From: Clostridiales bacterium
Lineage (GTDB): Bacteria > Bacillota_A > Clostridia > Oscillospirales > Oscillospiraceae
Assembly: GCA_022777455.1 (NCBI GenBank)
Contig: JALFGI010000024.1
Location: 1 to 18,695 of the forward strand
Direction: 5' to 3'
DNA: 18,695 bases
Part shown: positions 1 through 18,695 of the stretch, piece by piece
Position numbering within the stretch: position 1 is the stretch's first letter
How the letters are laid out: every line of letters begins with the position of its first letter
The notes under the pieces: model-generated
Databases searched by the model: none
The model's input: only the letters and a program-made list of their open reading frames with translations
Told to the model about the DNA's origin: nothing
Translations under genes and position numbers: made by a program

Positions 1-50
1 AGATAAATTGTAATTTATCGGTGCGTTGAATGGAACCAGGTTCCGTCCTA

Positions 51-124
51 ACTGTAGGGGAGGCTCTTAGCCTCCCGCGCAGTATAACCCACAAATATAA
101 ACCCGGTTGGGCGAATTCGTACGA
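51..124 (+). repeat. Hairpin repeat unit, type A
   Basis: The unit begins ACTGTAGGGG, forms a perfect 8-bp stem GGGAGGCT/AGCCTCCC (58-65 and 69-76, loop CTT), continues with GCGCAGTAT and ends near GGCGAATTCG. Two further copies of the same layout and length lie at 9125-9199 and 9211-9285, with different but still complementary stems. Confidence 0.7.
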
Positions 125-137
125 TGTCAGACACGAT

Positions 138-206
138 ACCATTCAACGGAACATCCAGTTCCGTTACGTTGCGGGCGGCTGCGAGCCGCCCCTACAGTGA
201 GTTGGG
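138..206 (+). repeat. Hairpin repeat unit, type B
   Basis: The unit begins ACCATTCAACGGAAC, then has a stem GGGCGGCT/AGCCGCCC (173-180 and 184-191, loop GCG) and ends CCTACAGTG. Copies with the same order of blocks lie at 9299-9366, 9384-9450 and 12161-12226. It reads roughly as the reverse complement of the type A hairpin core, so the two units here face each other. Confidence 0.7.
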
Positions 207-340
207 AAGCGATCCAGCCCGCCAAATTACAATTTATCGTCCGGTGGTTATTGATATGATGTATTATACACCCGGTTGGTGGAATCGTAAAGGGTGTTCA
301 GCGCCGGGAAAATGTTAATGAATAATTCAAAAACGGGGGG

Positions 341-369
341 TTGACTTTTTTAGCACTCTCTGGTATAGT
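341..369 (+). promoter_or_regulatory. Sigma-A type promoter of the hrcA operon
   Basis: A -35 box TTGACT (341-346) and a -10 box TATAGT (364-369) are separated by exactly 17 bp. The expected transcription start falls at about 375-377, inside the perfect CIRCE operator. This fits repression of the heat-shock operon by HrcA in unstressed cells. Confidence 0.85.
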
Positions 370-376
370 GTGCTTA
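350..376 (+). promoter_or_regulatory. Second, imperfect CIRCE-like operator
   Basis: A perfect left half-site TTAGCACTC (350-358) is followed after 9 bp by GTGTGCTTA (368-376), which matches the consensus right half GAGTGCTAA at 7 of 9 positions. The -10 box lies in its spacer, and its last three bases are shared with the perfect CIRCE at 374-400. Occupancy by HrcA is inferred. Confidence 0.6.
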
Positions 377-400
377 GCACTCAGAGAGAATGAGTGCTAA
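374..400 (+). promoter_or_regulatory. CIRCE operator (HrcA binding site)
   Basis: The sequence is TTAGCACTC-N9-GAGTGCTAA, an exact match to the CIRCE consensus with the standard 9-bp spacer. It lies over the predicted transcription start, just upstream of the hrcA ribosome binding site. In Firmicutes this operator is bound by HrcA, giving autoregulation of the dnaK operon. Confidence 0.97.
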
Positions 401-416
401 GGAAAGGAGGATGTTC

Positions 417-1508
417 ATGGAACTGTCCGAACGGAAAAAGAAAGTCCTGCGCAGCGTGGTTGACCTCTATATCCGTACCGCCGAGCCTGTTGGCTCCAAG
501 GCCATCACGGAGCTTCCGGATATGAACTACTCCTCCGCCACCATTCGCAACGAAATGGCAGAGCTCACCAACATGGGTTATCTGGAGCAGCCCCATACCA
601 GCGCCGGGCGGGTTCCCTCCGCCGCGGGCTACCGGCTGTATGTGGATGAGCTGATGCTTGACTACCGCCTCAGCGTGGACGAAACCAAGTCCATCACCAA
701 TGCCATTGAGGAGAAGATGAACCGGGTGGACAAAATGGTGGAAAAGGTGGCAAAGCTGGTATCCCAGGCCACCAATCTTCCCGCCATCAGCGCCGCCTCC
801 CGCCAGGGAGGGGCCACGGTCCTGAAGTTCAACCTGCTGCTCTCCGGTACCGGCAGCTTTATCCTGGTGCTCACCCTCCCGGGTGACCAGGTGGTGAACA
901 AGCTCATCAAGCTGCCGCTCCACATCACGGAGACGGAGCTGAATCTGCTCACCGCCCTGCTCAATGCCACCATGACGGAGATTCCTCTGGAGGAATTCAC
1001 CGCCGAGTTGATGGACAGGGTGATGCGCTCCGCCGGAGCCGCCGCCAGTCTCGTGCCGGTGATCGTGGACTTCACCACCGAGGCCCTGAAAAACCACAGC
1101 TCTACCAATATGGTGGTGGCCGGTCAGGCGAGGCTTCTGGGCCTGCCGGAATACCGGGATGTGGACAAGGCCCAGCGGGTGCTGTCCAGCATCGACGAGG
1201 ACGCGCTGAGCAATTTGCCCGCCGTGATGGAGGGCGCCAACGGCACCAAGGTCATCGTGGGTCCTGAAAATGTGGCCGACGAATTGAAGGATACTTCCGT
1301 GGTCATGACCAAGTTTGACATCGGCGACGGAATGCAGGGCGTGATCGGCGTGGTTGGTCCCACCAGAATGGACTATGCCAAGGTCACCGCCCGGCTGAGC
1401 TGCTTCGCAGAAAATCTGAGCAAGATGTTTGCCAAACCCGAAGCCCCCCAGCTGCCAGGCGCCGTGGAGCACGATGCCCTGGCCCATGACGAGAAAGCAC
1501 CGAAATAA
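417..1508 (+). CDS. hrcA: Heat-inducible transcription repressor HrcA
   Basis: HrcA is the cytoplasmic repressor that binds CIRCE; in the family its activity depends on GroEL. The N-terminal winged-helix domain (about residues 1-75) includes SSATIRNEMAEL, followed by the family signature QPHTSAGRVPS and GYRLYVDEL. The rest is the regulatory region. The protein is 363 aa, slightly long for the family because of a roughly 20-residue Pro/Ala/His-rich C-terminal tail. An in-frame ATG at 390 lies inside CIRCE; I chose the ATG at 417 because AGGAGG (405-410) sits 6 nt before it, whereas the ATG at 411 directly abuts that site. It is the first gene of the hrcA-grpE-dnaK-dnaJ operon and is autoregulated through the operators directly upstream. 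Confidence 0.96.
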   Translation: MELSERKKKVLRSVVDLYIRTAEPVGSKAITELPDMNYSSATIRNEMAELTNMGYLEQPHTSAGRVPSAAGYRLYVDELMLDYRLSVDETKSITNAIEEKMNRVDKMVEKVAKLVSQATNLPAISAASRQGGATVLKFNLLLSGTGSFILVLTLPGDQVVNKLIKLPLHITETELNLLTALLNATMTEIPLEEFTAELMDRVMRSAGAAASLVPVIVDFTTEALKNHSSTNMVVAGQARLLGLPEYRDVDKAQRVLSSIDEDALSNLPAVMEGANGTKVIVGPENVADELKDTSVVMTKFDIGDGMQGVIGVVGPTRMDYAKVTARLSCFAENLSKMFAKPEAPQLPGAVEHDALAHDEKAPK

Positions 1509-1523
1509 AGGAGAGACCTGCAT

Positions 1524-2087
1524 ATGTCGAAAAAGGAAAAGCAGCAGCAGCAGGAGCCGGAGCTGGAAGCCCAGCCCACCCAGGAAACGGAAACCGCCGA
1601 AACCCCCGAGGCCGCCCAGGAGGCCGCCCCTGAGGTGACGGTGGAGGAAGCTCCCCAGATCAACTGGGAGGAAAAATATAACGCGGAACACGATACCTAC
1701 CTGCGTCTGGCTGCAGAGTTTGATAATTTCCGCAAGCGCACCATCAAGGAGAAGGAAGCCTCCTACGGCAACGGCAAGGCCGATGCCGTGAGTAAGCTGC
1801 TTCCCATCTATGACATCCTGGAGCGGGCCGTGAACCAGCCCACCGAGGATGCCGCCTACAAAAAGGGCGTGGAGCTGACCATGACCGAACTGGTGAAGAT
1901 CTTCACCGGCCTGGGCGTGGAAATCTTCGGCCAGCCCGGAGACAGCTTCGATCCCGCCCTTCACAATGCGGTGATGCACGTGGAGGATGAAAGCCTGGGA
2001 GAGAACACCATCACCCAGGTGTTCCAGAAGGGCTTCAAGCTGGGCGATAAAATCGTCCGGTTTGCTATGGTTCAGGTTGCAAACTAA
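1524..2087 (+). CDS. grpE: Nucleotide exchange factor GrpE
   Basis: GrpE is a homodimeric cochaperone that releases ADP from DnaK. The 187-aa protein has a low-complexity Gln/Glu/Pro-rich N-terminus (about residues 1-45), a region expected to form the long dimer helix (NAEHDTYLRLAAEFDNFRKR), and the C-terminal beta domain with PGDSFDPALHNAVMH and GFKLGDKIVRFAMVQV, all typical of the family. A ribosome binding site AAAGGAGA (1507-1514) precedes the ATG, and only 15 nt separate it from hrcA, so the two genes are co-transcribed. A large inverted repeat starts immediately after its stop codon and separates it from dnaK. Confidence 0.96.
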   Translation: MSKKEKQQQQEPELEAQPTQETETAETPEAAQEAAPEVTVEEAPQINWEEKYNAEHDTYLRLAAEFDNFRKRTIKEKEASYGNGKADAVSKLLPIYDILERAVNQPTEDAAYKKGVELTMTELVKIFTGLGVEIFGQPGDSFDPALHNAVMHVEDESLGENTITQVFQKGFKLGDKIVRFAMVQVAN

Positions 2088-4049
<1,962 letters not shown>

Positions 4050-7002: not shown

Positions 7003-8296
7003 GTATCAATACCCGGAGCTGGATGAAAAGCTCTTTAAAGAGGTTCTGCCCAACGGGCTCACCCTGGCGGTGGTGCCCCGGAAGGGCTTTGCCAGAAGCA
7101 TCGCTTATTTTGTTACCGATTTCGGCTCCATCCACACGGATTTCACCCTGGATGGGGTAAACCATACCACCCCCGCCGGGGTGGCCCATTATCTGGAGCA
7201 TAAAATGTTCGAGCTGCCGGGAGACCGGGATGTGACGGCGGAATTTGCCGCCCTGGGGGCCTCCGTCAACGCCTTCACCAGCTACGACATGACCGCCTAT
7301 TACTTTTCCTGCACCCAGGCCTTCGAGCAGTGTTTGCACCTTCTGCTGGAATTCGTGTCCACCCCTTATTTTACCCAGGAAAGCGTGGAACGGGAGCGGG
7401 GCATCATCGACCAGGAGATCGGCATGAACCTGGATGCCCCGGACAGCGTGATTTTTGACAACCTCATGGCCGCCCTCTATGAAAACCACCCCATCCGTGT
7501 GCCCATTCTGGGAACCCGGGAGTCCATCCGGGAGATTACCCCGGAAATTCTGGAGCTGTGCCACCGGGCCTTTTATCACCCGGGGAATATGCTGCTGTGC
7601 GTCATCGGCGACGTGGACCCGGAGGCGGTGAAGCGCATCGCCCTGGAGGTGCTGGGAACGGAAAAGACGCCCATGGGAGAAAAGCAAACCCATTGGCCGG
7701 AAGCCATGGTTCCCGTGAAGGAAGAAACCCTCTGCGCCATGGAGGTGGCCATGCCCACCTTCAGCCTGGCCTTCAAGTGCGAGCCCATTGGCCTGGGGAG
7801 CCAGGCCATCCGCCGGGAGATGGTGGCGGATCTGGCGGCGGAAGCCCTGTTCGGCGAGTCTTCGGAGTTGTACCTGCGGCTGTATGAGCAGGGGCTGATT
7901 GACAGCTCCTTCGGCGGCGGCTTTGAAACCTTGCAGGGCTGCGCCATGCTCTGCGTGGGGGGCGACAGTGAGGACCCCTGGGCGGTCCGGGACGCCATCA
8001 TTGCCCAGGCGGAAAAGCTGACCCGCACCGGCATCGGTCAGGAGGAATTCCTTCGGTTGAAACGAAGCGCCCTGGGCCGGAGAATCCGGGGGCTGGACAG
8101 CCTGGATGGCACCTGCTTCCGGGTGTGCGCCTATCATTTCTCGGATTTTGACTATTTCCGCTTCCCGGAGGTGTACCGGGGCATTGAAAAGCAGGAAATT
8201 CTGGAATTTCTGGCCCGGGTGGTGCGCCGGGAGCGGTGTGCCATCTCCGTCATCAATCCCCTGTCGGAGGATGGGGACGAAGGAGCGATTGTATGA
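6995..8296 (+). CDS. ymfH: M16-family zinc metallopeptidase YmfH
   Basis: This 433-aa M16 peptidase carries the inverted zinc motif HYLEH (residues 65-69), with a likely third ligand at E141 in ERGIIDQEIGMNLD about 72 residues later, as the family requires. It is the active-type partner of YmfF. The B. subtilis pair is named in EF-P aminopentanol modification, though the exact substrate of the peptidase is not evident from sequence. The ATG lies inside the last codons of ymfF, and its TGA overlaps the ATG of lgt as ATGA, so translation of all three genes is probably coupled. No signal peptide is visible, so it should be cytoplasmic. Confidence 0.92.
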   Translation: MTEYQYPELDEKLFKEVLPNGLTLAVVPRKGFARSIAYFVTDFGSIHTDFTLDGVNHTTPAGVAHYLEHKMFELPGDRDVTAEFAALGASVNAFTSYDMTAYYFSCTQAFEQCLHLLLEFVSTPYFTQESVERERGIIDQEIGMNLDAPDSVIFDNLMAALYENHPIRVPILGTRESIREITPEILELCHRAFYHPGNMLLCVIGDVDPEAVKRIALEVLGTEKTPMGEKQTHWPEAMVPVKEETLCAMEVAMPTFSLAFKCEPIGLGSQAIRREMVADLAAEALFGESSELYLRLYEQGLIDSSFGGGFETLQGCAMLCVGGDSEDPWAVRDAIIAQAEKLTRTGIGQEEFLRLKRSALGRRIRGLDSLDGTCFRVCAYHFSDFDYFRFPEVYRGIEKQEILEFLARVVRRERCAISVINPLSEDGDEGAIV

Positions 8297-9114
8297 ACCC
8301 CGCGAATTACTCTGTGATTTCTTTCCCCTTTCTGGGGCTGGAGGTGAATCCGGGCCGGAGCTTTTCCATCGGGCCTGTGGAAATTCATTATTATGGTCTG
8401 GTGATCGCCCTGGGACTGCTGCTGGCGGTGCTGTATGCCGAAAAACGCTGCCATTACGCAGGACTGTCCAAGGATGATCTGCTGGACGGGGTACTGTGGA
8501 TCACGCCTTTGGCCATTGTCTGCGCCCGGATTTACTACTGCGCCTTTTCCTGGGCGGATTACCGGGACAATCCCATCTCCGTGCTCTATATCTGGAACGG
8601 CGGCATTGCCATTTACGGCAGCGTCATCGGCGCGGTGATCGGCGTGATCATTTTCTGCAGGATCAAAAAGACCAATCTGCCCGCCCTGCTGGATCTGGTG
8701 CTGTGCAGCTTCCTCATCGGCCAGTTCATCGGCCGCTGGGGCAATTTCTTCAACCGGGAGGCCTTCGGCGCTGCCACGGACTCTTTCTTCCGCATGGGCC
8801 TACTCAACACCGTCACCGGGGAATTTGAGTATTACCATCCCACCTTTTTGTATGAATCGGTGTGGAATCTGGCGGGGTTTTTGATTCTGAATTACTGCTA
8901 CCCCCGCCGCCGCTACAACGGCCAGATCGCCCTGGGCTACTGCGCCTGGTACGGCCTGGGAAGATCCTGGATCGAGGGATTGCGGGTGGACAGCCTCTAT
9001 TGGGGCAGCCTCCGGGTCAGCCAGGTGCTGGCCATCGTCACCTGCCTCACCGCCTCCGCCCTCCTCATCTGGCAGCACTTCCGCGCCCACGACCCGGAAA
9101 AATTGCTGAAATAA
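8293..9114 (+). CDS. lgt: Prolipoprotein diacylglyceryl transferase
   Basis: Lgt transfers a diacylglyceryl group from phosphatidylglycerol to the lipobox cysteine of prolipoproteins at the cytoplasmic membrane. The 273-aa protein is polytopic and has the Lgt signature GRWGNFFNREAFG (residues 147-159), the HYYGL motif (32-36) and the GLRVDSL segment (229-235). I chose the ATG at 8293 because AAGGAG (8280-8285) lies 7 nt upstream and the start overlaps the ymfH stop as ATGA; an upstream in-frame ATG at 8236 lies within ymfH and would add a non-family N-terminus. It closes the ymfF-ymfH-lgt operon. No clear terminator follows, only hairpin repeats. Confidence 0.96.
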   Translation: MNPANYSVISFPFLGLEVNPGRSFSIGPVEIHYYGLVIALGLLLAVLYAEKRCHYAGLSKDDLLDGVLWITPLAIVCARIYYCAFSWADYRDNPISVLYIWNGGIAIYGSVIGAVIGVIIFCRIKKTNLPALLDLVLCSFLIGQFIGRWGNFFNREAFGAATDSFFRMGLLNTVTGEFEYYHPTFLYESVWNLAGFLILNYCYPRRRYNGQIALGYCAWYGLGRSWIEGLRVDSLYWGSLRVSQVLAIVTCLTASALLIWQHFRAHDPEKLLK

Positions 9115-9124
9115 CAAACGGCCC

Positions 9125-9199
9125 ACTGTAGGGGCGGATATTATCCGCCCGCGCAGTATCAGCCAACGATCATAAACCAGCCCAGGCGAATTCGCACTA
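9125..9199 (+). repeat. Hairpin repeat unit, type A (tandem copy 1)
   Basis: This 75-bp unit has the order ACTGTAGGGG, stem GGCGGATA/TATCCGCC, GCGCAGTATC, AGCCAACGATC and GGCGAATTCG. It starts 10 nt after the lgt stop and so would lie in the lgt 3' untranslated region. The next 75-bp unit is a direct repeat apart from a changed stem. Confidence 0.75.
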
Positions 9200-9210
9200 C
9201 CCCCGACCAA

Positions 9211-9285
9211 ATTGTAGGGGAGGCTCGTAGCCTCCCGCACAGTATCAGCCAACGATCAAAAACCAGGCCGGGCGAATTCGCACCA
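9211..9285 (+). repeat. Hairpin repeat unit, type A (tandem copy 2)
   Basis: This 75-bp unit is directly repeated relative to 9125-9199, sharing GTAGGGG, CAGTATCAGCCAACGATC and GGCGAATTCGCAC. Its stem is GGGAGGCT/AGCCTCCC, different from copy 1 but fully complementary. Confidence 0.75.
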
Positions 9286-9298
9286 TTTTGGGCATAAT

Positions 9299-9366
9299 AC
9301 CATTCAACCAAATACTCAAGTTCGCAAGCTGGCGGGAGGATACGATCCTCCCCCACAGTGGCTGGG
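9299..9366 (+). repeat. Hairpin repeat unit, type B
   Basis: The unit starts ACCATTCAACC, has the stem GGGAGGAT/ATCCTCCC (9334-9341 and 9345-9352, loop ACG) and ends CACAGTGGCTGGG. It is oriented opposite to the two preceding type A units. Confidence 0.7.
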
Positions 9367-9383
9367 CGGTTTCGGAACCCGAT

Positions 9384-9450
9384 ACCATCCAACCGAACAC
9401 GCAGTTGCGTTACCTGGCGTGCGGCTAATAGCCGCCCCTACGGTGGCTGA
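9384..9450 (+). repeat. Hairpin repeat unit, type B
   Basis: The unit starts ACCATCCAACCGAACACGCA, has the stem GCGGCTA/TAGCCGC (9421-9427 and 9429-9435) and ends CCTACGGTGGCTG. A further partial copy of the ATTCAACGGAACG end block lies at 9472-9485. The whole gap 9115-9519 is explained by these units; I see no gene or promoter in it. Confidence 0.7.
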
Positions 9451-9519
9451 TCCATCATCGGGAGCCGGTTCCATTCAACGGAACGCCCATTCAACAAGAT
9501 AAAAATGGAGGAAAACACC

Positions 9520-10011
9520 ATGAAACGGGAAGACTACATCAGTTGGGATGAATATTTCATGGGCATCGCCATGCTGGCGGCCCGGCGGAGCAAGGACCCC
9601 AATACCCAGGTGGGCGCCTGCATCGTCTCGCCGGAGAACATCATCATCTCCACCGGCTACAACGGCATGCCCAAGGGCTGCAGTGACGATGAATACCCCT
9701 GGGAGCGGGAGGGGGCCGAGACCAAGTACCCCTACGTGGTCCACGCGGAGCTGAATGCCATCCTCAATGCCAACGGGCGGGACCTGCGGGGCAGCCGGCT
9801 GTATGTGGCACTGTTTCCCTGCAACGAGTGCGCCAAGGCCATCATCCAGAGCGGCGTGAAGGAGGTCATCTATCTGTCGGACAAATACTGCGACAGTATG
9901 ATGAACCTGGCCTCCAAACGGATGCTCCAGTCTGCCGGGGTGAAATTCACCCAATTGACACCCACCCGGCAGACCATCGTACTGGATTTCGTGCCGGAGG
10001 AGCAGCGGTAG
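9520..10011 (+). CDS. dCMP deaminase (deoxycytidylate deaminase family)
   Basis: This 163-aa zinc-dependent deaminase has the HAE motif (H75, E77, in [12 protein letters not shown]) and PCNEC (C101, C104), the zinc ligands and proton shuttle of the cytidine/deoxycytidylate deaminase superfamily. The segment [21 protein letters not shown] and the following acidic [11 protein letters not shown] are typical of dCMP deaminases, including ComEB-type proteins. The expected reaction is dCMP to dUMP, which feeds dTMP synthesis. An ATG at 9505 lies within the ribosome binding site ATGGAGGA, so I placed the start at 9520. It stands alone between a repeat array and the promoter of the debranching enzyme; its own promoter is not evident. 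Confidence 0.93.
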
Positions 10012-10069
10012 GCCAACTTTGGACAAAAAATGTGGCGAACTTTGCCGGTTCTTCTTCTATTCTGGGGGA

Positions 10070-10098
10070 TTGACGAACGGGGCAAAAATGAATATACT
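10070..10098 (+). promoter_or_regulatory. Promoter of the glycogen debranching enzyme gene
   Basis: TTGACG (10070-10075) and TATACT (10093-10098) are spaced by 17 bp, a near-consensus sigma-A promoter. The coding sequence starts 59 nt after the -10 box. A perfect palindrome overlaps the -10 box. Confidence 0.8.
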
Positions 10099-10110
10099 TT
10101 TTGTATATTC
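10090..10110 (+). promoter_or_regulatory. Palindromic operator candidate over the -10 box
   Basis: GAATATAC (10090-10097) and GTATATTC (10103-10110) form a perfect 8-bp inverted repeat around TTTTT. It covers the -10 box and the expected start site, the usual place for a repressor operator. The cognate regulator is not identifiable and no regulator gene lies nearby. An alternative is an RNA hairpin near the 5' end of the transcript, but it lies partly upstream of the start. Confidence 0.55.
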
Positions 10111-10156
10111 GTTTGGGAGAAGATCCCTCAATCAATTGACGCAATGGAGGAATAGT

Positions 10157-12100
10157 ATGCGGTTTCTTTACGGCAAACAGGAGATGCGGGACCTGACCCG
10201 CAGCCAGGAAAGCTGCTTTCTGCTCACCAATGGCCTGGGCGGCTATGCTTCCCTCACCGCCGCCTATTCGGTCAACCGCTGCGATCAGGGCCTGCTGATT
10301 TCCGCGGTGAAGGCCCCCAATGAACGGGTGACCCTGGTGCACCGGATGAGCGAACGGCTCAATGTGGAGGGAAAGGATTGCTACCTGTCCACCCAGGAAT
10401 TTGCCGACGGCACCGCCCCGGAGGAGGGCTACCGGCACCTGAGCTTCTTCCTCTATGACAATGTTCCCCACTGGCGCTATCACATCGGCGGCGTCCGGGT
10501 CACCCGGAGCATGGCCATGACCTACGGCCAGAACACCACCGCCGTGCTGTACAAGGTGGAAAATCAGTCCGCCTCTCCCTGCGTTCTCACCGTGGAGCCC
10601 TTTGTCAAATTCGGCCCCAAGGAGCAGGCCATCCAGGCAGAGCCGGCAATCAGCTATTCCGCCGGGAAGATCAGCTGCGGCCCCCATGCCCTGCACATCA
10701 CCACCAACGGCACCCTGCGGGAAACCCCCAAGCGCACCCAGCGCCTTTCCTACCGGGAGGATGCCAAGGACGGCCGCCCCGGTCAGGGCGTCGTGTCCTC
10801 CATCTGCGTGGCGGAGATCACCGTGGGAGCCGGGGAGAACGTGGAATTCAGCGTGATCTTCTCCGCCCGGCGGCAGTTCCTCACCGCCGAGGAGATTCTC
10901 ACCACTCAGCTGCGCCATCAGGGCGAGCTGGAGAGCCGGGCCGGCTTCCGGGACCCGGTGGCCCGCCAACTGACGGTGAGCGCCGATGCCTTTGTGGTCC
11001 GCCGGGCCTCCACCAACGGCATGACCATTCTGGCCGGCTACCCGCTGTTCAGCGACTGGGGCCGGGATACCATGATCGCCCTCACCGGCTGCGCCCTGGT
11101 CACGGGCCGTTTTGTGGATGCCGCCAGCATTCTGCGCACCTTCCTGGCCTACGAAAAGGACGGCCTGGTTCCCAACCTCTTCCCCGAGGGAGGACATGAC
11201 CCTGCATACAACACCGTGGATGCCGCCCTGCTGCTCATCGATTCCGTGTGGCAGTTTGTCCGCCGCTGCGGCAACTGGGATTTCGTTCGGGAGGCCTATC
11301 CCACCCTGGAGCGGATCATCGCCGCCTACCGCAAGGGCACCCACCACGCCATCTACATGGATACCGACGGCCTGATCCACGCCGGCGAAGGCCTGGACCA
11401 GGTGACCTGGATGGATGTGTGCGTCCAGGGCATCCTGCCCACCCCCCGCCACGGCAAGCCCGTGGAGATCAACGCCTACTGGTACAATGCCCTGAAAATC
11501 ATGGAGGAATTTGCCCAGCGGCTGGGGCTTGACGGGAAGGATTACGGCGAACTGGCGGAAAAAGTCAAAAAATCCTTTGTGGAAAAATTCTATATGGAGG
11601 ACAAGGGCTACCTGCGGGACGTGCTTTCCGGCACTTCCGCGGACGAGCAGCTGCGCTGCAACCAGATCTGGGCCCTGAGTCTGCCCTACACCATGCTCAC
11701 CCATGAGCAGGAGTGTAATGTGCTGCACGTCGTGGAGCGCAATCTCTACACCCCCTGCGGCCTGCGCACCCTGGCCCCCTCCGACCGGGAGTTCCGGGCC
11801 ACCTACGGCGGCGATCAGGTCACCCGGGATATGGCCTATCACCAGGGCTCCGTGTGGGTGTTCCCCCTGGGGGCTTTCTACATGGCTTATCTCAAGGTCC
11901 GGGGCAACTCCCCCGAGGCCAAGGCGGATGTCCGGGCCCAGCTGGCGGCTCTGGAGCCCATGCTGAGAGAGGGCTGCGTGGGTCAGCTGCCCGAGCTCTA
12001 CGACGGCCTCTGCCCCAGCACCGGCAAGGGCTGCTTCGCCCAGGCCTGGAGCGTGGGCGAAATCCTGAAGGTTTACGAGGCCATCGATAAAAACGGTTGA
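10157..12100 (+). CDS. Glycogen debranching enzyme (amylo-alpha-1,6-glucosidase, GH133-like)
   Basis: This 647-aa protein is the bacterial/archaeal type of glycogen debranching enzyme. The N-terminal domain begins with SCFLLTNGLGGYASLT (about residues 19-34) and the C-terminal (alpha/alpha)6-barrel domain has AGYPLFSDWGRDTMIALTG (about 293-311), then LRTFLAYEKDGLVPNLFPEG, TVDAALLLIDSVWQF and late QGSVWVFPLGAFY. The family hydrolyses the alpha-1,6-linked glucose left at branch points of glycogen or limit dextrin. No signal peptide is seen, so it acts in the cytoplasm. An in-frame ORF extends upstream to 10019, but GGAGG (10146-10150) places the start at 10157, and the upstream part contains the promoter. 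The next gene, a GH13 glucosidase, fits a shared role in glycogen/maltodextrin breakdown. Confidence 0.94.
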   Translation: MRFLYGKQEMRDLTRSQESCFLLTNGLGGYASLTAAYSVNRCDQGLLISAVKAPNERVTLVHRMSERLNVEGKDCYLSTQEFADGTAPEEGYRHLSFFLYDNVPHWRYHIGGVRVTRSMAMTYGQNTTAVLYKVENQSASPCVLTVEPFVKFGPKEQAIQAEPAISYSAGKISCGPHALHITTNGTLRETPKRTQRLSYREDAKDGRPGQGVVSSICVAEITVGAGENVEFSVIFSARRQFLTAEEILTTQLRHQGELESRAGFRDPVARQLTVSADAFVVRRASTNGMTILAGYPLFSDWGRDTMIALTGCALVTGRFVDAASILRTFLAYEKDGLVPNLFPEGGHDPAYNTVDAALLLIDSVWQFVRRCGNWDFVREAYPTLERIIAAYRKGTHHAIYMDTDGLIHAGEGLDQVTWMDVCVQGILPTPRHGKPVEINAYWYNALKIMEEFAQRLGLDGKDYGELAEKVKKSFVEKFYMEDKGYLRDVLSGTSADEQLRCNQIWALSLPYTMLTHEQECNVLHVVERNLYTPCGLRTLAPSDREFRATYGGDQVTRDMAYHQGSVWVFPLGAFYMAYLKVRGNSPEAKADVRAQLAALEPMLREGCVGQLPELYDGLCPSTGKGCFAQAWSVGEILKVYEAIDKNG

Positions 12101-12112
12101 TTCATCTATTTC

Positions 12113-12226
12113 GTAGGGAACGGCCTATGTGCCGTTCCCCACGGTGTGGACAAACCGTGTGCCATTCAACCAAACACGCAGGCCCGTTGCGTTGCGGGAG
12201 GCGAAACGCCTCCCATACAGTGGGTG
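12113..12226 (+). repeat. Two hairpin repeat units between carbohydrate genes
   Basis: The first unit (12113-12147) has GTAGGG and a 9-bp stem GGGAACGGC/GCCGTTCCC (12116-12124 and 12131-12139, loop CTATGT), ending CACGGTG. The second (12161-12226) is a type B copy: GCCATTCAACCAAACACGCA, stem GGGAGGCG/CGCCTCCC (12196-12203 and 12207-12214, loop AAA), ending ATACAGTGGGTG. Both belong to the family at 1-240 and 9125-9450. Confidence 0.7.
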
Positions 12227-13957: not shown

Positions 13958-14178
13958 CAAATTGGTATTTGGCGAACCGGAATTGCCGCACCCCTTGGCT
14001 CCCCCTCTGGGGGAGCTGGCTGCCCCGTTAGGGGCAGACTGAGAGGGCAACACGCAGCATATTAAGATGGTATTTCCTTCTCTACGGTAACCCTCTCAGT
14101 CAGCCTGACGGCTGACAGCTCTCCCAAAGGGAGAGCCAAGGGGTGCTACCGTATCTGCCCGCCAAATTACAATTTACC
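13958..14178. repeat. Large composite inverted repeat after the GH13 gene
   Basis: The arms 13988-14047 and 14087-14146 are imperfect reverse complements: GCACCCCTTGGCTC pairs with GAGCCAAGGGGTGC, and ACTGAGAGGG with CCCTCTCAGT. Each arm contains its own smaller hairpins (CTCCCCCTCTGGGGGAG, TGCCCCGTTAGGGGCA; CTCTCCCAAAGGGAGAG, CAGCCTGACGGCTG), so the whole can fold as a branched structure. Outer flanks AAATTGGTATTTGGCG (about 13959-13974) and CGCCAAATTACAATTT (14160-14175) are again inverted. No ORF is supported. It looks like a non-autonomous, MITE-like or BIME-like element. Confidence 0.75.
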
Positions 14179-14204
14179 GTTCCGCTGAAAATGCGTATAA
14201 CAGC

Positions 14205-14243
14205 ACAGCACCGCACCCCGATATGAGGTGCGGTGCTGTTTTT
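14205..14243 (+). terminator. Intrinsic terminator for the rightward transcript
   Basis: ACAGCACCGCACC (14205-14217) pairs perfectly with GGTGCGGTGCTGT (14227-14239), a 13-bp stem followed by a run of five T ending at 14243. It ends the transcript from the glucosidase gene before it runs into the opposing operon. On the minus strand the hairpin is followed by GCTGTTATAC, without a U tract, so it is at best a weak terminator for the leftward operon that ends at 14246. Confidence 0.88.
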
Positions 14244-14245
14244 GT

Positions 14246-14785
14246 TCAGATGAAGGTTTTCGGGAGCAGCTGTATCAGTGCGATGCCGGCAAGGACGACC
14301 AGGGTGAGGATCAGCAGGGCCAGCAAAAAGGGAATCCACTCGTTTTCCTTTTTCCTCTGGGGCTGGGCTTCGGGCGGTGGGGAGGGCTGATTTGGCTGGC
14401 AGATGGTGTAAACGGTGCCGTTTTCCGGGAAGCTGTCCTGGATTGCCTCCTGGGGGAGGTGCCGGTGGGCCTGGGCCAGCAGTGCCTGACGGTCCTCCGG
14501 GGGCTGGGCCACCCAGACCAGGCTTCCGTCGGGGGCGCGCCCTGCCTGAGCGGAAGGGAAGAATTCCCGGATCACAACCTGCCGGTTTTCCGCCAGATCC
14601 ATTCCCTTGTAGATGATCTCAATGGCATTCTTTTCCAGCACCCGGCCGGTGAGATACCGGCCGTGGAGAATACACTGGTCCAGGGCATGGTGCACCACCG
14701 GGGCGGCCCCGGGGTCATACCCGCACAGGGGGCAGGGATAGGCCGGGGTTTGATGCAGACAGTTCATGCAGTAGAGTTGCTCCAT
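14246..14785 (-). CDS. Zinc-ribbon pseudokinase fragment with C-terminal membrane anchor
   Basis: This 179-aa protein begins with a zinc ribbon (C6, C9, C18, C21: CMNC and CPLC). The next part aligns by eye with the N-lobe of clostridial Ser/Thr kinases that have a zinc ribbon: ILHGRYLTGRVL (39-50) is strand beta1, and VVIREFFPSA (70-79) corresponds to the usual VAIKEYFP. The glycine-rich loop is replaced by EKNAIE and the catalytic lysine is Arg (R73). A segment FPENGTVYTICQ (119-130) resembles beta4-beta5 and the hinge. No C-lobe, HRD or DFG motif follows; instead come a Pro-rich linker and one membrane helix (about 150-174). It cannot be an active kinase. The ORF is intact, with AAGGGG 6 nt before the ATG, 24 nt after the VWA gene. 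The kinase comparison rests on pattern recognition and needs a profile search. Confidence 0.72.
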   Translation of the reverse strand: MEQLYCMNCLHQTPAYPCPLCGYDPGAAPVVHHALDQCILHGRYLTGRVLEKNAIEIIYKGMDLAENRQVVIREFFPSAQAGRAPDGSLVWVAQPPEDRQALLAQAHRHLPQEAIQDSFPENGTVYTICQPNQPSPPPEAQPQRKKENEWIPFLLALLILTLVVLAGIALIQLLPKTFI

Positions 14786-14809
14786 AGACAGCCCCTTCCT
14801 CCGGGAGGA

Positions 14810-16534
14810 TTACTTCTTTTCCACAGTCACGGTATAGCGGTCGGAGCCGGCCTGAATCACGGCATTGCCCGTCACCCGCACCCAGCCTTCGGGGCGCAGG
14901 GGCACGCCGTTCAGGGCGGTGCCGTTGGTGGATTTTCGGTCCCGCAGGTGCAGCACCCGGCTGTCCCACTGCAGTTCAAAGTGCAGACCGGACAGGGCGG
15001 TGTCCGTTTCGTTCAGGGTGATGTCGGACCGTTTGTTCCGGCCCAGGGTCACGCTTTCGTTTACGCCAATGAAAAATTCGATGGCGTCCTCGGGGTGATC
15101 CGCCGGCACCAGCCGCACTCTGCAGCCGGGTGTGGTGTCCCGTTTGGGAAGCTCCTTCCCGGGCTGGGGTCCGGGGGATTTGCGGTCGGGCTCATTTTGG
15201 AGTTCCGGTTTGGGCTGCTGTTCGGACTCCGGTTTGTTTTTTTGCACTGTTAGCTCGGAGATATCCAGCTTTTCCCAATCCTCTTCTTCGGAGGCGGGGG
15301 CTTTGTCCCGGCGGCGCTCCTTTTTGGGCTTGGACTTGGGCTCCGGCTCTTCCAGGCTGCGCTGGTTGTACCGCAGCAGCACCGCCAGGACGATGAGGAA
15401 CAGCAGCAGTCCGGTGCCGATCACCAGGAGAATCAGAAGCATCCGGGGATTTCCACCGGGGGAGGGGCTGTGTACCGGCGGGGTGGTTTCTGTGGGTGCG
15501 GTGGTCTCGGGCTGGGTGGTTTCCGGAGGAAGGGTTTGGGTGGTCTCGGGCTGGGTGGTCTCCGGCGGCAGGGTTTCCGGCGGCAGGGTTTCCGACTGGG
15601 TGGGCTCTGTGGGAGCCGGGATCAGGGCGCCGTCTACGCTGCATTTGTCACTCACCCGGGTGTCGCCCTGCTGCCAGGTCACTTCAATCTCCAGTGCACC
15701 CATTCCGGAGGGAAGCTGGGACAGGTCCAGGGAGAGGACGGCACCGGAGAGCACATGGTCGACCACCTGGTTCAGGGCGTCCTCCACATAGGTGGCGGAG
15801 CCGAAATCATTCCGGGAGGGGATGACGCTGAAGCCGCCGATGGACTGGTTGGCATATTCTTCCATCCGGTTGGCGTTTTTCTGGGCAGATTTGTCGGCCC
15901 AGGGGTCCACCACAGCAAGGGTGCACAGACTCAGACCGCTGCTGCGAATGGCCTGGTTCACCTCCTCCTGGCTTACCGCAATGCGGGCGTTGTCCAGCCC
16001 GTCGGTGATCAGCAGGATGCAGCCCAGGCTTTCGTCATCCCGGGCCGCCGTGATGGTCTCCAAAGCGGAGACAATGGAAGCATTGAGGTTGGTAAATCTG
16101 GCGGGATACACGCAGGCCTGGTCGATGCCCTGCTGACGTTCTTCCGCAGTGGCCAGGGGCTCGCCGAAGGACAGCTCTTCACCCATGAGCACCAGAACCA
16201 TGCGGTCAATGGGGCGCATGGCGTCGCTCAATGCGGTGAGAGCCCGGTACTGCTGCTCCTTTTGGGAGTTGCTGAGGGAACTGGACTGGTCTACGATGCA
16301 GTAGTAGGTGATGGGCAGCCCCGCATCCTGCACTGCGGTGATGGTGTAATTGTCGAAGCTCTGGCCGTTCACCCCGACGGTGATGGTTCCGTCTCCGGCG
16401 GGGGCACCGGCCAGATACAGAGCCGAATCATCCACCCGGGTAAAGGGGTGGAGAAATACCGGATCCGCTCCGGCGGAAGCAGCCAGGGCTGCCAGCATGA
16501 CAAGACTCAGAAATACCGCGATCACTTTTTTCAT
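14810..16534 (-). CDS. Membrane protein with extracellular VWA domain and cytoplasmic FHA domain
   Basis: This 574-aa protein has a signal peptide (about residues 1-23) and a VWA domain (about 75-265) with the MIDAS motif DQSSS (D82, S84, S86) and TDG (177-179). A Thr/Pro/Glu stalk follows (306-358) with repeated TLPPET and TTQPET units, then a membrane helix (364-388) and a charged linker. The C-terminal FHA domain (about 471-572) keeps G498-R499, S515, H518, the STNGT stretch (535-539) and N542-G543; the usual Arg after the Ser is Gly. The predicted topology puts the metal-binding VWA domain outside and the phospho-threonine-binding FHA domain inside. The ATG at 16534 overlaps the stop of the upstream gene as ATGA, with GAGG 8 nt before; a GTG at 16543 is an alternative. 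Function is not known; a sensory or adhesive role is inferred. Confidence 0.88.
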   Translation of the reverse strand: MKKVIAVFLSLVMLAALAASAGADPVFLHPFTRVDDSALYLAGAPAGDGTITVGVNGQSFDNYTITAVQDAGLPITYYCIVDQSSSLSNSQKEQQYRALTALSDAMRPIDRMVLVLMGEELSFGEPLATAEERQQGIDQACVYPARFTNLNASIVSALETITAARDDESLGCILLITDGLDNARIAVSQEEVNQAIRSSGLSLCTLAVVDPWADKSAQKNANRMEEYANQSIGGFSVIPSRNDFGSATYVEDALNQVVDHVLSGAVLSLDLSQLPSGMGALEIEVTWQQGDTRVSDKCSVDGALIPAPTEPTQSETLPPETLPPETTQPETTQTLPPETTQPETTAPTETTPPVHSPSPGGNPRMLLILLVIGTGLLLFLIVLAVLLRYNQRSLEEPEPKSKPKKERRRDKAPASEEEDWEKLDISELTVQKNKPESEQQPKPELQNEPDRKSPGPQPGKELPKRDTTPGCRVRLVPADHPEDAIEFFIGVNESVTLGRNKRSDITLNETDTALSGLHFELQWDSRVLHLRDRKSTNGTALNGVPLRPEGWVRVTGNAVIQAGSDRYTVTVEKK

Positions 16535-17001
16535 GATGTACACCTCAATTCTCTCTCGTCCCTGGTACTATTCCAGGAGAAGTCAGGTCCGCACAGGGGG
16601 ATGAACAGCAGTGCCGTGCTGCCTGCCGTCAACCGGTCGCCGGGGTTCAGAACCACCGCGTCCAGGATCATTTTCCCGTTCACCCGCACCGGCAGCCCTT
16701 TGCCCCGGGGGCCGAAGGAATACAGCTTCAATTGCTCGTCGTAGCAGAGGATCCCACCTGCCTCCGGGCCCAATTGGGGATCCCAGGGGATGGAGATATC
16801 CGCCCGTGGGCCGCTGCCGATGTAATTGTAACCGGCATGGAGCCGGAAATCCAGACCCCGATAGGGTTCTTCGGTGCATACCAGCCAGCCCACCGTGGGG
16901 CGGAATTCCGGTGCGGACGCCTCCTGGCTGGGACACAGGGGACAGGTTTCGTACCGGTCGCCGTCGAAGAAATGTCCTTCGGGGCAGCGTTCAATCTTCA
17001 T
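16531..17001 (-). CDS. Small protein with N-terminal Cys/His knuckle and degenerate FHA domain
   Basis: This 156-aa protein begins with RCPEGHFFDGDRYETCPLC, a likely zinc-binding knuckle (C6, H10, C20, C23) found at the start of many clostridial FHA proteins. Residues about 36-134 follow the FHA pattern of that family (TVGWLVCTEEPYRG, then DFRLHAGYNYIG, ending LLFIPLCGPDFSW). The phospho-threonine-binding residues are eroded: the usual IGR is IGS (62-63) and the Ser-Arg-x-x-His motif is replaced by GPEAGGI. It therefore may not bind phosphopeptides. I chose the ATG at 17001 because AGGAGG lies 9 nt upstream and the protein then starts at the knuckle; the longer ORF to 17124 lies inside the protease gene. 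It overlaps the protease gene by 11 nt and the VWA gene by 4 nt, so its translation is coupled to both. Confidence 0.85.
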   Translation of the reverse strand: MKIERCPEGHFFDGDRYETCPLCPSQEASAPEFRPTVGWLVCTEEPYRGLDFRLHAGYNYIGSGPRADISIPWDPQLGPEAGGILCYDEQLKLYSFGPRGKGLPVRVNGKMILDAVVLNPGDRLTAGSTALLFIPLCGPDFSWNSTRDERELRCTS

Positions 17002-17989
17002 GATGCCCATCCTCCTTTTCTGACCGGCGGGCAGTGAGCTTTTCCTTCCCTTCTGCCACAGCCCCCCGGGCGGTTTTGATAAAATACAGTACAAAGGCCG
17101 CAAGCGCTGCCACGCCCGCCGCAAAAATCACGGATGCCAGGGTGGGGCTGATGTGGGGCTGGTGAAAAAGATTTGCCGCCAGGACGGTAATCACCGAGGG
17201 GCCTTCGGCGGTGGCGTAGGGGATGTTCAGCCGGTCCAGCAGTTCCATGCCGTAGTCGATATACACAGCGCAGAACAGGTCTGTGGACACGTCCGCTTCA
17301 AAGCCGTAAGTGTTCTGGGCCACCACGGCGCCTTGCTCATTTACCAGGGGTCCGCCGGAAAAGCCGTGCTGGATGGCGGCGGTGTGGATCAGGGACTTGG
17401 TATTTCCGGCCCGGGCCATCGCCAGATGGTCCCGGATTTCGCCGGAGGTGACGGATACATCCTCCGCCCCGGAGTCGGCTCCGTAGCGGGAACCCTTCAG
17501 GCCGGGAAAGCCAAGGGCGTAAACCCCGGTGCCGTTCACTGCCCGGCGGGAGGACAGCAGGGGAAGGGCCTTGTATCCTTCCACCGGTTCCATGGCCTGG
17601 ATCACTGCCACGTCGGGGCAGCCGTCGGTGGTGATCAGCACCCGGCACTTCACGGCGGAGCCGGGCAGGGGCCGCTGATGGTCGTCAAATTTGGCATTGT
17701 CCCGCAGCAGCCACAGCTCCACCTGGCTGTCGGCATATTTTCCGCTGCCGGTGGCCACATGCCAATTGGTGAGGAAAATATCCGAGTCCTCCCCGGCCGT
17801 GCCCACGGCAAAGCCGGTGCCCGTCCAGCGGGAGCGCACTCCGGTTTCGGCGTCGATGCCCATGCCGTACAGGTGTACCACACTCTGACAGGCCTGCTCC
17901 ACCGCGGATGTCTCCGCCTGAGCCCGGGGGAGGGGAAGCAGCATCAGACACATAAGCACCGCCGGAAGCAGAAAACATTTCCTTCTCAA
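16991..17989 (-). CDS. Secreted, membrane-anchored trypsin-like serine protease
   Basis: This 332-aa protein has a signal peptide (about residues 1-25, ending AQA) and a chymotrypsin-fold protease domain with the catalytic triad in family context: H77 in LTNWHVAT, D126 in GCPDVAVIQ and S211 in GFSGGPLV. A membrane helix (about 283-304) and a short charged cytoplasmic tail follow. There is no PDZ domain, unlike HtrA/DegP. The protease should act outside the membrane, tethered by its C-terminus. I chose the TTG at 17989 as start because AGGAGG (18001-17996) lies 6 nt upstream and a complete signal peptide follows; the next in-frame ATG lies inside the signal peptide. It is the second gene of the operon, with 79 nt between it and the upstream FHA gene, and overlaps the next gene by 11 nt. 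Substrate unknown. Confidence 0.88.
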   Translation of the reverse strand: MRRKCFLLPAVLMCLMLLPLPRAQAETSAVEQACQSVVHLYGMGIDAETGVRSRWTGTGFAVGTAGEDSDIFLTNWHVATGSGKYADSQVELWLLRDNAKFDDHQRPLPGSAVKCRVLITTDGCPDVAVIQAMEPVEGYKALPLLSSRRAVNGTGVYALGFPGLKGSRYGADSGAEDVSVTSGEIRDHLAMARAGNTKSLIHTAAIQHGFSGGPLVNEQGAVVAQNTYGFEADVSTDLFCAVYIDYGMELLDRLNIPYATAEGPSVITVLAANLFHQPHISPTLASVIFAAGVAALAAFVLYFIKTARGAVAEGKEKLTARRSEKEDGHHED

Positions 17990-18068
17990 AGGAATCCTCC
18001 TCGTTTTTGGATGCCCAGGGTCGGACGCCGGCGGACACCCCGGCCTCCCTCGCGGTGGCGGGATTGGG

Positions 18069-18626
18069 TTATTGCATCACAATCCGGAATTCGTGGCGTT
18101 TTTCTCCCAGGAAGAAGGGGGTATCCGGTTCCAGGGGCGTTTCTTCCGCCAGGGCTTCCTCCCCCAGCCAGGTGTCTGCCAGAGGGGTCAGGGTAAAGGT
18201 ATCTCCCTGCCGGGTCAGACGGCAGTGCCGGGGCCGGATGCTTCGGGTGTCCTTGGGATAGCGGACGGAGCAGGTTTCCTCCCGGCCGATGGTCAGGCTC
18301 CCTTCCTCCAGCGGCCAGGCCTTTCCGCCCAGGGGACCGCTGCGGCAGACCAGGGTGGGGCGGGGGACATGCCTGCCTTCGGATTTCACATGGATCGCCT
18401 GGGGCACATCGGTGCGGTCCTTTTCCGCCCGGGCAGAGATGAACCGGGTGGTGACCAGGGCGATGAGAAAGCCCAGGGCAATTCCCAGAAACCGCACCAC
18501 ATTCACGATTGCGCTGCCGCTGCTGTCCGCCTCTGCCGGGCTCTGGGCCCAGGCGGTCACGGAAAAGAAAGCCGGTGCTGTCAGAATGCTGACCGCCAGA
18601 GCGGCGGCCCGGGTGCCGAATTTCAT
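18069..18626 (-). CDS. Membrane-anchored FHA-domain protein
   Basis: This 185-aa protein has an apparent signal peptide (residues 1-28, ending AWAQ), a short outer segment, a membrane helix (about 39-61) and a C-terminal FHA domain (about 90-183) predicted to be cytoplasmic. The FHA domain keeps LTIGREE (G114, R115) and a SIRPRH stretch (S129 to H134), so phospho-threonine binding is plausible, but the usual NG turn near the end is replaced by ADTWLGEEAL. It is the first gene of the leftward operon; a good promoter lies 37-65 nt upstream of the ATG. Its ribosome binding site is poor (AGAAGG about 13 nt before the ATG), which may keep its level low. Probably a membrane adaptor; function unknown. 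Confidence 0.85.
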   Translation of the reverse strand: MKFGTRAAALAVSILTAPAFFSVTAWAQSPAEADSSGSAIVNVVRFLGIALGFLIALVTTRFISARAEKDRTDVPQAIHVKSEGRHVPRPTLVCRSGPLGGKAWPLEEGSLTIGREETCSVRYPKDTRSIRPRHCRLTRQGDTFTLTPLADTWLGEEALAEETPLEPDTPFFLGEKRHEFRIVMQ

Positions 18627-18662
18627 GGGGATAAGCGCCTTCTTTCTTTGTTATGTGAATCT

Positions 18663-18691
18663 ATCATACCATACCCCTTCCCGGGAATCAA
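18663..18691 (-). promoter_or_regulatory. Promoter of the FHA/protease/VWA operon
   Basis: Read on the minus strand, TTGATT (18691-18686) and TATGAT (18668-18663) are spaced by exactly 17 bp, a good sigma-A type promoter. The first start codon lies 36 nt after the -10 box. This suggests that the five leftward genes form a complete operon beginning inside the window. Confidence 0.75.
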
Positions 18692-18695
18692 GGCC

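Follow-up and report, generated by a model that had tools for sequence, protein, structure and literature searches.

Five genes on the minus strand of an 18,695-nucleotide (nt) contig of a Clostridiales bacterium (JALFGI010000024.1; this whole stretch is called here the window) combine FHA-type proteins, a surface protease, a VWA protein and, at the end, a kinase N-lobe standing alone. Their open reading frames, P0001 to P0005, follow each other from 18626 to 14246, at the place and in the tight order given by the preliminary description of this DNA. The predicted features are as follows.

18663..18691, minus strand: sigma-70-like promoter TTGATT-17-TATGAT, 9/12 matches, TG ahead of the second hexamer
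18069..18626, minus strand: P0001, two N-terminal hydrophobic segments and an FHA domain (Pfam), optional gene
16991..17989, minus strand: P0002, signal peptide, trypsin/HtrA-like protease, transmembrane (TM) segment near residue 295, short cytoplasmic tail
16531..17001, minus strand: P0003, zinc ribbon and FHA fold (predicted structure)
14810..16534, minus strand: P0004, signal peptide, VWA domain, Pro/Thr-rich stalk, TM segment near residue 376, cytoplasmic FHA domain
14246..14785, minus strand: P0005, zinc ribbon (four Cys), kinase N-lobe, C-terminal TM segment; N-lobe-only pseudokinase
14199..14246, minus strand: strong stem-loop at the operon end, possible terminator (-36 kcal/mol, z -7.3)

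According to the coordinates, P0001 and P0002 are separated by 79 nt, P0002 overlaps P0003 by 11 nt and P0003 overlaps P0004 by 4 nt, with a gap of 24 nt before P0005, so that the last four genes overlap or nearly touch. The proposed promoter is present as a sequence, but two sites of this type occur in 14000-18695, where chance alone predicts 0.9, which makes it weak evidence. The stem-loop 3' of P0005 has a poor T-run and was not listed by a terminator scan; an Rfam scan of the window at gathering thresholds found nothing. On a simple scale hydrophobic segments were registered in P0001 (at residues 16 and 49), P0002 (14 and 295), P0004 (13 and 376) and P0005 (162), and none in P0003. These positions predict the protease and VWA domains to be outside the membrane; the FHA domains, the zinc ribbons and the N-lobe would be on its inner side, in line with the topology first proposed. 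Kinase and PP2C queries gave no matches among the open reading frames of the window, which agrees with the earlier statement that neither an active kinase nor a phosphatase is encoded there.

In P0005 a kinase N-lobe is indicated by profile and fold, with PpkA as the nearest solved kinase; no Pfam kinase match exceeded its cut-off. The predicted structure is confident and contains the five-stranded N-lobe with alphaC. The family (38 homologues) is built of a zinc ribbon, the N-lobe and one membrane helix. What an active Hanks-type Ser/Thr kinase requires is gone from it: the VAIK Lys occurs in 0 of 37 rows, as do the first and second Gly of the Gly-loop GxGxxG, the third being kept in 2 of 37, and P0005 itself stops after beta5, passing into a Pro-rich linker and the TM segment, so that there is no C-lobe and hence no HRD or DFG. 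Its alphaC region is about 10 residues shorter than in full-length kinases; in alignment columns 98 to 111, tested for the alphaC Glu, where the alignment is unsure, Glu occurs in at most 17 of 37 rows. Judged by its sequence, P0005 should be a conserved N-lobe-only pseudokinase unable to catalyse phosphorylation. The dead kinase fragment of the preliminary description belongs to a conserved family and is not a truncation by decay. That the gene is a dying kinase remnant carried by its neighbours would fit the missing catalytic parts, and is hardly credible in view of the uniform length, invariant Cys, purifying selection and confident fold; the idea of a pseudogene was rejected on account of family conservation and purifying selection. 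The available parts of a pseudokinase review (PMC12599244) name no N-lobe-only family.

Besides the window, 38 DNA stretches from related genomes were read. Two of them, L281 and L282, contain the same short form of the cluster, 34 contain a full form, and two, L245 (G016) and L286 (G114), are hrcA stretches without this protease family. Six-frame reading of the full-form loci gave a kinase match together with one or more PP2C matches in 34 of 34, a P0003-family protein in 31 (exceptions L218, L239 and L284), a VWA-FHA-type protein in 13 and a stand-alone FHA protein like P0001 in nine. Selection was biased for 21 of these loci, chosen with a same-contig kinase match already known; all 13 chosen by the protease alone (L236-L242, L246-L248, L283-L285) contained both kinase and PP2C. 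The adjacent PP2C or zinc-ribbon kinase, which the preliminary description had suggested looking for, is therefore present in every full-form cluster read but at 0 of 3 short-form loci.

The kinases of full-form clusters are of zinc-ribbon type with Lys, HRD and DFG mostly kept (32 aligned), and PpkA is the nearest solved kinase also for the one full-length cluster kinase searched. Pfam analysis of one full-form cluster registered two PP2C, Trypsin_2 with FHA and two kinases, one with LRR_5 above the cut-off after the TM segment and the other with matches in that part that stay below threshold; the VWA+FHA proteins of two other clusters (L224 and L247) are above Pfam cut-offs. The kinase with LRR_5 repeats after its TM helix lies at 8817-11654 (plus strand) of L217. 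Many cluster kinases have 700-1,200 residues and one TM segment near residue 350-500, and for this reason they look like receptors. Across 350 genomes of the family (membership inferred from handle numbers), kinase matches were found in 29 of 35 protease-positive genomes versus 17 of 315 others (p 1e-24), at thresholds of 1e-6 for protease and 1e-3 for kinase, E-values being per single genome, as in all genome searches here, and with 8 of 43 protease-positive genomes excluded as lying outside the 350. Kinase and protease lie on one contig, at most 5 kb apart, in 22 of the 29 co-positive genomes and on different contigs in the other seven; the completeness of the related assemblies is unstated.

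Other forms of kinase reduction were also met among these relatives. At 7532-7972 (plus strand) of L342 (G1267), after two kinases, PP2Cs and a P0003 relative, there is a 146-residue zinc-ribbon N-lobe protein that ends at the hinge, has no TM segment and has lost the Gly-loop and VAIK Lys. Being a single sequence, it may be a case of decay, but it suggests repeated origins of N-lobe-only forms. A 334-residue zinc-ribbon pseudokinase with both lobes and with Lys, HRD and DFG all changed lies at 8184-9188 (minus strand) of L222, in a full-form cluster also having intact kinases, and is another case of kinase death. Three short P0005-matching frames were examined directly and set aside: the frames in G160 and G975 (C5, C37) reach the ends of their contigs, and that of G1155 is a zinc-ribbon kinase copy broken within the C-lobe (L341, 5983-6663, minus strand).

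HrcA has its best match (73%) in G114 among 130 genomes, and of 121 genomes of the G114 genus 25 contain a protease match at 1e-3; matches of 67-68% were registered in G1262 and G1293 only, the long partial matches of the other genomes reaching at most 42%. Both loci (L281 and L282) keep the order P0002-P0003-P0004-P0005; in L282 the last two genes are about 280 nt apart, and the P0004 frame is whole, its tblastn match covering the first half only. P0001 had no tblastn match at either locus and is an optional gene outside the conserved core, so that the expected co-occurrence of five families holds for four of them. Judged by position, length and first residues, an amylase, a deaminase and lgt are neighbours shared by L281 and the window. 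Among 107 genomes drawn as relatives of G1262, which is counted with them, the P0005 profile has matches in 25, and the close short form is confined to G1262. Metagenomic homologues of P0002, P0004 and P0005 with an equal longest-contig figure (e.g. 3958 for P0052, P0184 and P0012), and the near tags ACI3XG_09090 and 09080 of P0212 and P0015 (Faecousia sp.), indirectly suggest that these genes appear linked there as well.

Among the matches listed, wider searches gave no close relatives. Scanning genome contigs with A2 gave none among the 80 loci listed (best E 2e-27, 35%), viral contigs contained no relative and plasmid tblastn gave one match, with 33% identity over 57% of the query. P0005 matched 68 of 295 genomes of the order and 46 of 350 genomes of the family, none above 45% identity and most in frames of at least 500 residues; protease matches in the genus of G016 (11 of 42 genomes) included none close. 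In the open-licence literature we recognised no description of this gene set or of a receptor-kinase module in clostridia that has a membrane protease of its own.

No cluster kinase or PP2C was found at the three short-form loci. The clearest kinase remaining in G1262 and G1293 is a PASTA kinase, one in each genome (PF00069 search; PASTA domains were tested in these two only), located on a different contig from the cluster. PP2C is present there in one copy each, adjoining the PASTA kinase; full-form genomes G1213 and G1240 have more copies, some of them at the cluster. On L295 of G1262 a fn3-matching kinase-like protein adjoins a Big_2 zinc-ribbon protein (12-1175, minus strand, and 1231-3567, plus strand); G1293 and G114 contain kinase-like proteins similar to it.

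Of the three FHA or FHA-like proteins initially proposed, P0001 (26.7 bits, Pfam cut-off 20.7) and P0004 (42.5 bits) exceed their cut-offs; P0003 has only a sub-threshold Pfam match, to Yop-YscD_cpl (18.1, cut-off 33.2), and joins them through its predicted model (pLDDT, the predicted local distance difference test, 88), which matches FHA structures. The further proposal that these domains read phosphothreonine fared unevenly. It agrees with P0004, where all 36 rows reaching the domain retain GR, LSxxH and the NG stretch, which supply the binding-loop residues Arg, Ser and Asn (14 near-copies, P0164-P0177, were left out of the alignment, and P0181 and P0212 end early); GR is kept also in the more distant P0213 and P0214. 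In P0003, by contrast, the pocket Arg of the GR motif is replaced by Ser in all three short-form sequences, whereas each of the 27 full-form sequences examined has kept it, and P0001, which retained GR, has Arg in place of the SxxH Ser kept in 9 of 9 full-form stand-alone relatives. Because these phosphothreonine-pocket residues are lost, P0003 and P0001 probably do not read phosphorylation. The VWA domain of P0004 scored 18.2 bits, below the Pfam cut-off of 23.8, yet many homologues carry a precomputed VWA_2 and the DxSxS motif is retained in P0004 itself and in most aligned rows, so that its designation as a VWA protein can be kept.

In the original model the operon forms a phospho-signalling complex whose FHA domains would all read the phosphorylation produced by a kinase encoded elsewhere. 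The intact FHA domain of P0004 and the PASTA kinase of both short-form genomes favor it, and a kinase encoded elsewhere that serves the operon is plausible. As a whole, however, this model is unlikely, since the pocket residues of P0003 and P0001 are lost, P0001 is missing from two of three loci and the cluster has no PP2C.

P0002 is a surface protease, as had been described: Trypsin_2 scored 68.4 bits (Pfam cut-off 27.6), a signal peptide and TM anchor are predicted, and the triad H77, D126 and S211 is invariant in 22 aligned rows taken from 120 listed homologues. With the HtrA (DegP/DegS) equivalog of the Do family it reached 34.9 bits against a cut-off of 416.2, and no PDZ domain was found, Pfam naming only Trypsin_2 and Trypsin. 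PADLOC matches of the protease were dismissed, as they look like general trypsin-domain matches. P0002 also lacks the C-terminal FHA domain of distant relatives, registered by precomputed domains and alignment in P0153, P0155, P0156 and P0158-P0163 and by Pfam in L217. The protease has 332 residues in the window versus 399-508 in full-form loci, where it was FHA-fused wherever tested. In a quick tree of 52 chosen rows, with fused and unfused forms assigned by length and precomputed domains, the 16 unfused proteases given made one clade (SH-aLRT, the Shimodaira-Hasegawa-like approximate likelihood ratio test, 100), to which five fused rows were joined by a branch with support 99; a short-form operon is not known for every unfused protease. 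This single tree suggests that the direction of change was loss, with less certainty because long branches meet at the root.

In the short-form lineage the kinase is without its C-lobe and its extracellular part, and the cluster PP2Cs and the protease FHA domain are missing; composition, gene order and conservation are as described above. The reading we favor, at roughly 55%, is that the operon arose by reduction of a PpkA/PP2C/FHA-type module, leaving a membrane scaffold of protease and VWA protein with a single phospho-input. Several observations weigh against it. GR Arg is Thr or Lys in three of nine full-form stand-alone FHA proteins (L233, L236 and L285), hence the short form is not alone in losing pocket residues; and L246, a full-form relative of P0003, lacks the pocket Ser. 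Six of the 35 protease-positive genomes had no kinase match. Besides the PASTA kinase, G1262 and G1293 encode a weaker kinase-like protein, about 1,030 residues long, and G114, in which no cluster was seen, also has two matches of this kind. Finally, the short form rests on three loci as DNA, and the absence of kinase and PP2C in the source organism covers the 18,695-nt window only.

Known systems are compared here on the basis of the available parts of the cited papers. The PpkA-PppA-Fha pathway of the type VI secretion system (T6SS) shares with our clusters the PpkA-like kinase fold of P0005 and, in full-form loci, the set of kinase, PP2C and FHA; in Pseudomonas an extracellular VWA domain is carried by PpkA itself, in the Fha1-PppA-PpkA pathway (PMC3224232). 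Here VWA and FHA domains reside on one separate protein, a trypsin-like protease and zinc ribbons are added, and a PpkA-type kinase, PP2C and FHA are not encoded together in the short form, kinase and PP2C being absent from the window, L281 and L282. The zinc-ribbon kinase/PP2C/vWA neighbourhoods of GAP1-N2 systems differ in having been described for actinobacteria with GTPase systems, and the accessible parts of their description mention no membrane protease-FHA protein. YukC/EssB with YukB/EssC of the type VIIb secretion system likewise places a membrane pseudokinase next to FHA domains: the FHA region of YukB and the pseudokinase domain of YukC copurify (PMC9600267), and phosphothreonine residues are absent from the EssC FHA domains (PMC4925161). 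YukC differs in having a whole pseudokinase domain and an extracellular one, P0005 being an N-lobe only, with a zinc ribbon and hardly any extracellular portion. This likeness of pseudokinase and degenerate FHA, together with the fact that PpkA belongs to T6SS, is what would make the operon part of a protein secretion machine of either kind; it is very improbable, as no such machine is evident among genes called in L281 and L282, a weak objection in that no secretion-profile search was made.

MviN of mycobacteria is a lipid II flippase, and we know of no protease or VWA protein in the MviN-FhaA-PknB system. As in our operon, a pseudokinase and an FHA protein are combined there, acting with PknB on the cell wall; as a difference, MviN is phosphorylated in its C-terminal tail, and phosphorylated MviN recruits FhaA (PMC12599244). 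The MviN pseudokinase forms a back-to-back dimer, like some canonical bacterial kinases (PMC12599244). By analogy, P0005 might be a dominant regulator of the PASTA kinase, damping or recruiting it by pairing of its lone N-lobe with that of the kinase at the membrane, and the PASTA kinase is the clearest candidate left. This is quite unlikely, since P0005 is PpkA-like and sits among protease and VWA genes, and in G1262 and G1293 the PASTA kinase gene lies on a separate contig.

Returning to the reduced module, the operon would descend from a receptor-kinase module met in many related genomes, which combines PpkA-like zinc-ribbon membrane kinases, PP2Cs, an FHA protein with zinc ribbon and a protease-TM-FHA protein, joined in part of these genomes by a VWA-TM-FHA protein. 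The kinase N-lobe would have been kept as a small membrane protein without catalysis. P0005, the FHA-like P0003 and, where present, P0001 may dock to each other without phosphorylation at the inner membrane face, tethering the extracellular protease and the VWA protein into one complex. The FHA domain of P0004 would be the last phospho-reader, binding a threonine phosphorylated by the PASTA kinase, and wall stress could therefore control where the protease sits or how active it is. Such a complex, its contacts independent of phosphorylation and an input from the PASTA kinase are suggested here by analogy with the systems compared above.

Apart from the operon, the window contains repeats of 62-71 nt with GGGGAGGCT..AGCCTCCC-like cores at 43-199, 9117-9489 and 12154-12222, mostly intergenic, one of them sitting in the 5' part of a long open reading frame called at 12129; they resemble dispersed repeats of small size. 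An imperfect 66 nt inverted repeat (76%) at 13959-14175, immediately downstream of the operon stem-loop, may be another dispersed element.

Full-form and short-form clusters within one genus-level group make a natural before/after pair, in which the roles of FHA domains and of a pseudokinase can be followed once phosphorylation is removed. Absence of kinase and phosphatases coincides in it with loss of phosphothreonine-pocket residues of P0003, and a kinase-derived domain is retained alone with its catalytic half gone. One can assume, with slightly less than an even chance, that the stand-alone N-lobe is a conserved non-catalytic docking domain and that the module was rewired, having lost writer and eraser and having two of its three readers blinded, into a protease-VWA scaffold whose live FHA domain would hear the PASTA kinase. 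The clusters also point to a clostridial receptor-kinase module equipped with its own membrane protease.

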